From contig NZ_CP010535.1 of NCBI RefSeq assembly GCF_001430825.1, positions 3,018,501 through 3,082,500 of the forward strand: DNA of 64,000 nt. The letters run 5' to 3'. Position 1 is the stretch's first letter; the number at the start of each line of letters is the position of its first letter. The position numbers and the translations under genes were made by a program. This stretch comes from Sediminicola sp. YIK13. Its GTDB lineage: Bacteria > Bacteroidota > Bacteroidia > Flavobacteriales > Flavobacteriaceae. A model generated the notes under the pieces. The model worked only from the letters and a program-made list of their open reading frames with translations, had not been told where the DNA came from and ran no database searches. This document shows positions 3,786 through 36,660 of this stretch, piece by piece.

Positions 3786-4823
3786 ATGTCTTTTTCCCAA
3801 AAAATTATTCATTGGTATTCGGCCAACAAACGGAGTTTACCATGGAGAAACACCACAGATCCCTATAAGATTTGGCTATCGGAAATTATGTTGCAACAGA
3901 CCCGCGTAGCACAGGGAATGCCTTATTACGAGCGGTTTATAGAACATTTTCCAACGGTTCATGACTTGGCCAACGCGTCCGAAGAAGAGGTGTTGAAACT
4001 ATGGCAGGGACTTGGGTATTATTCCAGGGCAAGGAATTTACACGCCACCGCTAAATTAATTTCGGAAAAATACAACGGGCAGTTTCCAGATAACTATAAA
4101 GGGTTGTTGGCACTAAAGGGGGTAGGTGACTATACTGCCAGCGCCATAGCTTCTTTCTGTTTCAAAGAGGCGCAACCCGTTGTTGATGGAAATGTTTACC
4201 GGGTCCTGTCGCGTTATTTTGGAATAGACCTGCCTATCAACAGCACAGAGGGCATCAAATATTTTAAGGCTTTGGCCTTAAAGCTGATGGATGCCGATCA
4301 AATTGCGGACTATAATCAAGGAATCATGGAGTTTGGTGCTTTGCAGTGTGCGCCAAAGAATCCTTATTGTTTGCATTGTCCCTTAAACGATAGTTGTGTG
4401 GCATTACAGAAAGGAAAAATAGATGTCCTCCCAGTGAAATTGAAAAAGACCAAGGTTAAGGAACGTTTTTTCAATTACCTTGTAGTGTTGGATAAGGATT
4501 ATACTATTGAGATAAGGCAAAGAAGGGGTAGGGGGATATGGCAAAACCTTTATGAGTTTCCTTTGCTGGAAACAGAAAGGGAATATTCATTGGAAGAAAT
4601 AACCAATACCATGGATACTGTTTTGGAGTTAAAGGAAACTTCTGAGATCTATCAATTCAATGAAAAAAAAATTGTACATAAACTGTCCCACCAGCATTTG
4701 CACACTAAATTTTGGATCGTAAAAAGTGGGGAGAAACACAGGAACGGGGTGAGCCTTGAAGAGCTTAAGGAATATCCTGTGCCAGTTTTGATAGCAGAGT
4801 TTATAAATACGTTTAAATTTTAG
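3786..4823 (+). CDS. mutY: A/G-specific adenine glycosylase MutY
   Basis: MutY removes adenine mispaired with 8-oxoguanine or G in base-excision repair. The 345-residue protein has the catalytic Glu33 (EIMLQQTRV), the helix-hairpin-helix ALKGVGDYTASAI at 109-121 with catalytic Asp134 (VVDGNVYRV), and the 4Fe-4S loop Cys-x6-Cys-x2-Cys-x5-Cys (CAPKNPYCLHCPLNDSC). A C-terminal NUDIX-like 8-oxoG recognition domain follows from about residue 230. It is the first gene of the mutY-ssb-gldE-gldD cluster, 24 bases before ssb, and divergent from HU. A possible promoter element TACTTTTG is at 3760-3767. Confidence 0.96.
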   Translation: MSFSQKIIHWYSANKRSLPWRNTTDPYKIWLSEIMLQQTRVAQGMPYYERFIEHFPTVHDLANASEEEVLKLWQGLGYYSRARNLHATAKLISEKYNGQFPDNYKGLLALKGVGDYTASAIASFCFKEAQPVVDGNVYRVLSRYFGIDLPINSTEGIKYFKALALKLMDADQIADYNQGIMEFGALQCAPKNPYCLHCPLNDSCVALQKGKIDVLPVKLKKTKVKERFFNYLVVLDKDYTIEIRQRRGRGIWQNLYEFPLLETEREYSLEEITNTMDTVLELKETSEIYQFNEKKIVHKLSHQHLHTKFWIVKSGEKHRNGVSLEELKEYPVPVLIAEFINTFKF

Positions 4824-4847: not shown

Positions 4848-5318
4848 ATGAGCGGTACATTAAATAAGGTGATGCTAATTGGGCATCTTGGGGATGAGGT
4901 TAAGATTCATTACTTTGAAGGGGGAAATTGTATTGCGCGTTTTCCTTTGGCAACCAATGAAACCTACACCAATAAACAGACCGGAGAAAAGGTGACCAAT
5001 ACAGATTGGCACAATGTGGTGGTGCGAAATAAGGCCGCTGAAATCTGTGAAAAGTACTTGAGCAAAGGAGATAAAATATATGTTGAAGGAAGATTGAAAA
5101 ATCGTCAGTGGCAAGGAGAGGACGGTACCACGCGCTATACTACAGAGGTACACGTTCAGGAATTCACCTTTTTGACCACCAAAAATGAAAGTTCATCCAA
5201 TGCGCCATCTGGAGCTCCTTCTTCCGGACCTTCCAAAACAAGCGCACCGGCATCGAACGCCCCAAAAGCAACACCGCCATCAAGTGCGCCAGAAGAGGAT
5301 GATGATTTACCTTTCTAA
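4848..5318 (+). CDS. ssb: Single-stranded DNA-binding protein
   Basis: This 156-residue SSB has an N-terminal OB fold (TLNKVMLIGHLGDEV ... VEGRLKNRQW), a low-complexity Ser/Pro/Ala linker at about 115-147, and the acidic C-terminal tip EEDDDLPF that docks partner proteins of replication and repair. It lies between mutY and gldE on the plus strand. A TATTTTTG sequence just after the mutY stop could give it a promoter of its own. The same C-terminal tip sequence recurs on the DUF3127 protein at 35507-35884 in this window. Confidence 0.96.
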   Translation: MSGTLNKVMLIGHLGDEVKIHYFEGGNCIARFPLATNETYTNKQTGEKVTNTDWHNVVVRNKAAEICEKYLSKGDKIYVEGRLKNRQWQGEDGTTRYTTEVHVQEFTFLTTKNESSSNAPSGAPSSGPSKTSAPASNAPKATPPSSAPEEDDDLPF

Positions 5319-35506: not shown

Positions 35507-35884
35507 ATGGAAATACAAGGAAAAATCAAAATGGTCGATGAGACCAAAACTTTTGGAAACAACGGTTTTAGAAAAAGGGAAATGGTGATTACTACGGAGG
35601 AGCAATATCCGCAGCACATCATGATCGAATTTGTCCAGGACAAATGTGACCTATTGAATAACTACAGTGCAGGTCAGGAAGTTAAGGTTAGCATCAACTT
35701 GAGGGGTCGCGAATGGGTGAATCCACAAGGGGAGACAAAATACTTTAACTCTATCCAAGGATGGAGAATAGAAGGTGTGCAGTCCGAACAGGGCGGTGCC
35801 GGAATGCCTCCAGTACCACCTATGGATGCTTTTGAGCCAGCCGATAAATTAAATGAGGAAGATCATGACGATCTACCATTCTAA
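35507..35884 (+). CDS. DUF3127 OB-fold-like protein with an SSB-type acidic tail
   Basis: A 125-residue protein of family DUF3127, confined as far as I know to Bacteroidota. The core (MEIQGKIKMVDETKTFGNNG ... VSINLRGREW) is beta-rich and OB-like. A Gly/Pro-rich linker (about 95-112) leads to the C-terminus EEDHDDLPF, nearly the same as the tail EEDDDLPF of the SSB in this window. This suggests a single-strand nucleic-acid-binding protein that uses SSB-type partner docking, an inference from sequence. It follows the flavin reductase gene by 3 bases. Confidence 0.75.
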   Translation: MEIQGKIKMVDETKTFGNNGFRKREMVITTEEQYPQHIMIEFVQDKCDLLNNYSAGQEVKVSINLRGREWVNPQGETKYFNSIQGWRIEGVQSEQGGAGMPPVPPMDAFEPADKLNEEDHDDLPF

Positions 35885-35920
35885 TGGATTAAGTACTGTA
35901 TCAACCGGTATTAATACAAT

Positions 35921-35966
35921 ACGACCTATCCTCTTTCTTGAAATTGGGTAGGTCGTTTCGTTTTCA
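35921..35966 (+). terminator. Probable terminator after the DUF3127 gene
   Basis: ACGACCTA and TAGGTCGT form an 8-bp stem with a long loop of about 20 bases, followed by a T-rich stretch (TTCGTTTTC). The loop is long, so support is modest. Confidence 0.45.
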
Positions 35967-35991
35967 TTAGTTTTATATAAAATAGGATATT

Positions 35992-36660
35992 GTGAAAAAG
36001 GATAGCGGACATCACCCATTGTTCTTTGTGACGGATCGATTGGAGTTTCCTCCCGTGGAACATGCCAATGAGGAAGGGCTGTTGGCGGTAGGAGGGGATT
36101 TATCTTCAGAGCGTCTCCTACTGGCCTACAGGAGGGGGATTTTTCCATGGTTCAATGAGGATTCCTTGATTCTCTGGTGGAGTCCCGATCCGAGAATGGT
36201 GCTCTTTCCCAATAAAATAAAAGTCTCTAAAAGCATGCGTAAAATTTTAGAGGGAAATCGATTTAAATTGACCAAGAATACCCAATTTGAGGCAGTTATC
36301 GACCAATGTGCCCAAAGTCCGAGAAAGGACCAAATGGGAACATGGATTACACAAGCCATGAAAAAAGCCTATGTGAAGCTACATAAGCTCGGCATTGCCA
36401 AATCCTATGAGGTATGGGAAAAAGATGAATTGGTAGGTGGACTTTATGGAATAGATCTGGGTCATGTCTTTTGTGGAGAAAGTATGTTTAGCAAAGTAAG
36501 CAACGCCTCAAAATTTGCATTTATAAAATTGGCCCAAGAATTGGAGGAAAAGCGGTACAGCCTGATCGATTGTCAGGTGTATACCCCTCATTTGGAAAGT
36601 CTCGGGGCCGAAGAAATTCCCAGGGAAGCGTTTATTGAAATTCTAACTAGTCAAAAGTAA
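35992..36660 (+). CDS. aat: Leucyl/phenylalanyl-tRNA-protein transferase
   Basis: A 222-residue enzyme that adds Leu or Phe to N-terminal Arg or Lys, the first step of N-end-rule degradation via ClpS/ClpAP. Family signatures are EGLLAVGGDLSSERLLLAYRRGIFPWF and WWSPDPR at about 28-63, and GGLYGIDLGHVFCGESMFS. The start codon is GTG at 35992; no ATG lies nearby upstream. It is a single gene after a probable terminator. Confidence 0.95.
   Translation: MKKDSGHHPLFFVTDRLEFPPVEHANEEGLLAVGGDLSSERLLLAYRRGIFPWFNEDSLILWWSPDPRMVLFPNKIKVSKSMRKILEGNRFKLTKNTQFEAVIDQCAQSPRKDQMGTWITQAMKKAYVKLHKLGIAKSYEVWEKDELVGGLYGIDLGHVFCGESMFSKVSNASKFAFIKLAQELEEKRYSLIDCQVYTPHLESLGAEEIPREAFIEILTSQK

Follow-up and report, generated by a model that had tools for sequence, protein, structure and literature searches.

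DUF3127 proteins of Bacteroidota as probable compact single-stranded DNA-binding proteins with a conserved SSB-type tip

The DUF3127 protein encoded at positions 35507..35884 (+) of the window, i.e. the stretch of 64,000 nucleotides of the Sediminicola sp. YIK13 chromosome that was analysed, is very probably a compact and diverged single-stranded DNA-binding protein (SSB). It would combine an SSB-type OB core with a flexible linker and a docking tip, and would act as a second SSB sharing the tail hub of the canonical one. The tail of bacterial SSB is regarded as a hub that organises DNA replication and repair, docking partner proteins.

The gene encodes 125 amino acids. Its product is matched by PF11325 (DUF3127) over residues 2-89 (E 1.1e-32; 112.5 bits versus a curated cut-off of 27) and by PHROG 4932, "single strand DNA binding protein", over residues 1-125 (E 9.6e-48). 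NCBIfam holds no model matching the protein, and a profile search of the own genome returned this single DUF3127 copy and no second. Three parts are distinguished: an OB-fold core (residues 1-90; 35507..35776, +), a proline-rich linker (residues 91-116; 35777..35854, +) and the acidic tip EEDHDDLPF (residues 117-125; 35855..35881, +), the ORF ending in NEEDHDDLPF. A flavin-reductase-like gene (PF01613; 34577..35503, +) ends just upstream of the DUF3127 start codon, and the leucyl/phenylalanyl-tRNA protein transferase gene aat (PF03588; 35992..36660, +) lies downstream.

The first-pass annotation had proposed an OB-like core followed by a flexible linker, and structure prediction bears out both. 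In an AlphaFold2 model (monomer, built from 121 sequences), ten-residue pLDDT means are 92-96 across residues 1-90, with 82 residues at 90 or above. The core has the topology b1-b2-b3-helix-b4-b5 (strands 2-10, 21-30, 37-43; helix 44-52; strands 58-71, 77-90) and is followed by the linker, residues 91-116, which is predicted at low confidence with ten-residue means of about 50. All 50 matches listed by Foldseek against the PDB are SSBs (E 1.2e-6 to 1.7e-5), with moderate TM-scores of 0.50-0.60 by query, the tail being included in the query. VIA-align superimposes the model on the SSBs of Salinibacter (5odn; Z 12.0, rmsd 2.3, 90 aligned) and Fervidobacterium (Z 12.0, rmsd 2.5, 93 aligned).

Sequence comparison leads to the same family. 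A single-protein search of PDB sequences gave only one faint SSB match (E 0.28), and a profile was needed for clear SSB matches. Tail matches also included RhoGDI, ribonuclease and ribosomal entries, all unrelated and at E >0.3. With the family profile, SSBs top the list, the best being 1se8 (D. radiodurans SSB; E 2.1e-8). The window itself encodes a canonical SSB (PF00436 and TIGR00621; 156 aa; 4848..5318, +), which hhalign aligns to the DUF3127 profile with 96.9% probability (E 1.9e-10, columns 55-130, tip included). In BLASTP, the alignment with the same SSB starts at DUF3127 residue 54 and runs to the C-terminus, at 25% identity (E 2e-5, for a single pairwise comparison). Among the family members, 88 of 88 match PHROG 4932 and 49 of 88 match the canonical SSB PHROG 44, both of which are named single strand DNA binding protein. 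In hhalign, W70 of the DUF3127 protein is paired with W88 of the window SSB; 84 of the 88 rows of alignment A1 have W, Y or F at this position. The excerpt of PMC3991886 gives Trp-40, Trp-54, Phe-60 and Trp-88 as the base-stacking residues of E. coli SSB. It also describes a canonical SSB from Flavobacterium psychrophilum (FpsSSB) as a homotetramer of 140 aa ending in DLPF. Canonical SSBs thus share with DUF3127 the predicted OB core, the flexible linker, the D-x-PF tip and the aromatic position equivalent to W88, but their core spans 105-110 residues versus about 90 in DUF3127, and PF00436 is absent from the Pfam matches of the DUF3127 protein even at E 1.

The tails EEDHDDLPF of the DUF3127 protein and EEDDDLPF of the SSB, whose ORF ends in APEEDDDLPF, had been described as nearly identical; the coordinates, the frame and both tail sequences are correct. 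The tail is also conserved in other DUF3127 proteins. The close relatives (the best 80 of 586 matches among genome contigs, 77-86% identical) all end in [LVIM]PF (80/80). Distant bacterial members end in PF in 75 of 77 cases and in [LVIM]PF in 72 of 77. Left out of these 77 are the own gene (L001), one gene that runs off its contig (L138) and one near a contig end (L153), one gene in two pieces (L159 and L162), short tail-less copies (L163-L166) and two canonical SSBs (L167/L168). Among distinct viral proteins, drawn from three sets of matches (the top 80 of 205, all 25 of a second set and the top 80 of 554), 118/133 end in PF; the other 15 are in some cases shortened before the tail and in others altered in the last residues. 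In A1, P124 and F125 are each kept in 86 of 88 rows. Across the family, the linker is variable and the tip constant. Variant tips are EAPF (L023), IPPF (L129) and, in an extra copy, DQPF (L139), while two proteins of family f13 (L128, L131) have an acidic end without PF and the SSBs of the same genomes retain DDDLPF.

A chance origin of the tail was ruled out by a genome scan, window shuffles and the background of ORF ends. At the DNA level, the pattern [DE][DE](L/V/I/M/F)PF-stop has two occurrences in the window versus 0.06 expected from shuffles. In the whole 3.57 Mb genome it occurs four times, compared to once for a backwards control pattern. One of these four matches is followed by TGG rather than a stop and is not a protein end. 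Another, EDVPF at 1185949, lies in a different frame from the ORF that covers it and ends no ORF of at least 60 aa. Genuine protein ends with an acidic [DE][DE]xPF-stop tip are hence confined, genome-wide, to the DUF3127 protein and the window SSB. Likewise, among mechanically called ORFs, just two of the 80 in the window that reach 100 aa end in PF, exactly these two genes, and none of the 768 from the 80 close loci (L031-L110) that reach 150 aa does.

The own genome has two PF00436 matches, namely the tailed window SSB and a tail-less one outside the window (G000:C1:2381476-2381781; L449 3777-4082, -), whose product stops after the OB domain. Two further genomes of the own family (G281, G024) likewise have tail-less best-scoring SSBs. 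DUF3127 ends were compared with canonical SSB ends in 70 genomes; where the best SSB is tailed, mostly that copy was read. The PF tip is present on both proteins in 62/70 genomes, on DUF3127 only in six, on SSB only in two and on neither in none. The absence of "neither" genomes is not significant alone because the exceptions are so few, but the presence pattern fits a shared function.

The six DUF3127-only genomes include three from f2, a related family (G012, G278, G315; G278 and G315 are in one contig). Each has exactly one PF00436 match, which is tail-less and of about 105-107 residues, together with a tailed DUF3127 protein. This sole canonical SSB is 53-58% identical to the tail-less second SSB of Sediminicola versus 47-48% to the tailed one. 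The MutY-like gene (3786-4823) that adjoins the canonical SSB in the window was not found in the 4 kb read on either side of the f2 SSB. The f2 genomes may still encode a tailed SSB too diverged for detection by PF00436. The other three are G007 and G058, with one canonical SSB each, and G098, with two, all of them lacking the PF tip. Tips on SSB only are found in the f13 genomes G001 and G006. In two checked genomes that lack DUF3127 (G286, G360), the canonical SSBs are tailed.

The residue preceding PF also appears to be coupled between the two proteins. The combinations for DUF3127/SSB are L/L 43, L/other 2, other/L 6 and other/other 11 (Fisher p 1.5e-6, kinship ignored); by family majority they are 19/0/3/5 (p 7e-4, relatedness between families ignored). 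The other residues are mostly V or I, and also A, P, M and E. Since relatedness between families is uncorrected, this co-variation is suggestive only. It is conceivable, and put forward tentatively, that many Bacteroidota run two parallel tailed SSBs of different families on one set of partner pockets, and that the hub passes between them, in opposite ways in f2 and f13. The f2 genomes would have lost the tailed canonical SSB and kept the tail-less one, leaving DUF3127 alone to recruit the SSB interactome, with the reverse in f13. If so, f2 would represent a natural case in which the two tasks are separated, the tail-less SSB coating ssDNA and DUF3127 recruiting the partners.

DUF3127 is also encoded by phages, in 122 of 50,697 phage records, 120 of which are named after Bacteroidota hosts. 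Eleven of these phages were examined as a small, hand-chosen sample. All 11 have at least one replication or recombination gene in the flanks shown. In 5/11 an annealing protein, Erf or RecT, is encoded next to DUF3127 (P12024L, phi18:3, Freya_1, phi13:2, Panino), and 4/11 have an exonuclease of the YqaJ, RecE or ExoVIII type (P12024L, Nekkels_1, Harreka_1, Panino). PF00436 scores over its cut-off in none of the 11, and three sub-threshold PF00436 matches in these phages are the DUF3127 gene itself. Conversely, DUF3127 is not matched over cut-off in three phages with a canonical SSB, and in one of them, Arctus_1, a sub-threshold DUF3127 match falls on that SSB. The gene orders correspond: Erf, exonuclease (YqaJ) and DUF3127 in P12024L; RecT, exonuclease and canonical SSB in Arctus_1. 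On this evidence, DUF3127 and canonical SSB look interchangeable in such phage modules, within this small hand-chosen sample.

In bacteria, DUF3127 is found in 221 of 392 sampled genomes of the phylum (171 without a match), usually in one copy. By the kinship labels of the listing, it is present in 105 of 108 genomes of the class (3 without) and in 116 of 284 from the rest of the phylum. Of 14 named control genomes, only Bacteroides ihuae has it. As it is missing from part of the phylum and of the class, the protein is not indispensable everywhere. On plasmids it is rare (2 of 72,556 records). The gene aat is part of the downstream neighborhood in 80/80 close loci; there is no obvious reason for this retention (35507-36660 in the window). 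The flavin-reductase-like gene is near DUF3127 in just 48/80 close loci, and an operon logic with this neighbour was dropped for that reason.

This distribution bears on a reading in which DUF3127 is a phage SSB that was domesticated for a narrow task, e.g. in the uptake of DNA or in acting against phages or in their favour, and that does not contribute generally to replication or repair. Its occurrence in the phage records would agree with such an origin. The family tree also mixes host and virus copies: it is poorly resolved (21/211 inner branches starred) and contains 12 host/virus changes, of which at least four are forced on starred branches. A restricted role is nevertheless unlikely: the gene is single-copy in 48/48 genomes of the own family, its chromosomal neighbors are conserved (aat as above), and DUF3127 is the sole tailed SSB-like protein found in the three f2 genomes. 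PHROG 4932 matches the window protein over its full length, tail included; it stands for phage DUF3127 proteins, whereas the window gene is a single chromosomal copy with conserved synteny.

The predicted fold is shared with a second group of small OB proteins. In VIA-align, PriB structures also score near the top (1woc: Z 11.6, rmsd 3.3, 87 aligned; 1txy: Z 11.1, rmsd 1.9, 78 aligned), and because Z-scores of 12.0 and 11.6 are tied, the fold alone cannot separate SSB from PriB. DUF3127 might then be a PriB-like primosome factor, i.e. an SSB-derived OB protein of replication restart that handles ssDNA at PriA and has an added SSB tail. It would be the natural counterpart of the artificial PriB-SSBc chimera, a man-made fusion of Klebsiella proteins that, like DUF3127, joins a small SSB-like OB core to an SSB tail; according to the excerpt of PMC8509808, fusing SSBc to PriB raised ssDNA affinity and stimulated PriA. 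The same excerpt describes PriB itself as lacking an SSB-type tail, whereas DUF3127 has one. In addition, SSBs lead the family profile search, in which none of the 47 PDB sequences listed at E 10 is named PriB, and the phage members are located in recombination and replication modules of phages that, among those examined, have no other SSB. Taken together, a PriB-like factor is quite improbable. OB folds are functionally broad and a faint Pfam match to IF3_C exists (E 0.018, below cut-off), but an RNA-binding or nucleic-acid-independent OB protein with a coincidental acidic tip is most improbable in view of the tip, which is kept in bacteria and viruses alike although the linker before it varies, the 0/768 background, the SSB homology (profile, hhalign, PHROG) and the DNA-recombination context in phages.

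For a compact second SSB, the predicted fold, the homology, the conservation of the tail, the gene neighbourhoods and the distribution of the tip are computed results; the binding of ssDNA, the oligomeric state, the docking of partners and the process that DUF3127 takes part in are what we infer. RecO, RecQ, RecG, PriA and similar enzymes are partners of SSB tips. The 90-residue OB core of DUF3127 would coat ssDNA, the linker would extend the tip outward, and the DDLPF tip would dock SSB-interacting replication and repair enzymes by entering the pocket for SSB tips on such partners. In the own genome, DUF3127 and the canonical SSB at 4848-5318, both tailed, would use the same docking pockets, the third SSB being tail-less; in some bacterial genomes no SSB-like protein other than DUF3127 was found with the tip. 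That the two proteins would compete for partners or share them, as the first-pass annotation proposed, is indirectly supported by the coupled residues before PF and by the six of 70 genomes with the tip on DUF3127 alone. Phages would use DUF3127 as an SSB of their own, as part of modules for recombination and replication. The phage gene context points to a role where DNA with long single-stranded stretches is recombined and replicated, and the process served is most likely recombinational repair or replication-fork handling.

The SSB identity of phage DUF3127 proteins is largely known, as PHROGs and RefSeq already name them: several of the phage genes are annotated in RefSeq as single strand DNA binding protein. 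In the excerpt of PMC8004638, the SSB of a Pantoea phage bears both a PRK09010 and a DUF3127 domain. This was the only mention of DUF3127 found in the literature searched; searches for PF11325 returned nothing, those for RecT and the SSB tail nothing on point, and those for a second SSB in Bacteroidetes or Bacteroides nothing on point among the matches listed. A description of a chromosomal DUF3127 protein was not found among the matches listed. The widespread chromosomal second SSB with a conserved hub tip looks new, and so does the situation in f2, where DUF3127 seems to have taken over the tip. With a second widespread family that has the same tip and apparently replaces it in some lineages, the hub would be a two-protein system in Bacteroidota, and a testable function is now attached to a DUF. 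DUF3127 may also matter for recombineering tools in Bacteroidota, since phage annealing proteins are encoded next to it in five of the 11 phages.

Additional and aberrant copies of the gene occur in a few genomes. Short extra copies of 91-100 aa without a tail are present in G363 (L163, L165, L166) and G330 (L164, below cut-off). In G076, the DUF3127 gene is in two pieces in different frames (L159/L162), because the gene is broken or because the sequence contains an error. Second copies are found in G285 (L160) and G044 (L139). The latter may be prophage-borne, as it sits among phage sequences in the tree, though its branch is long.
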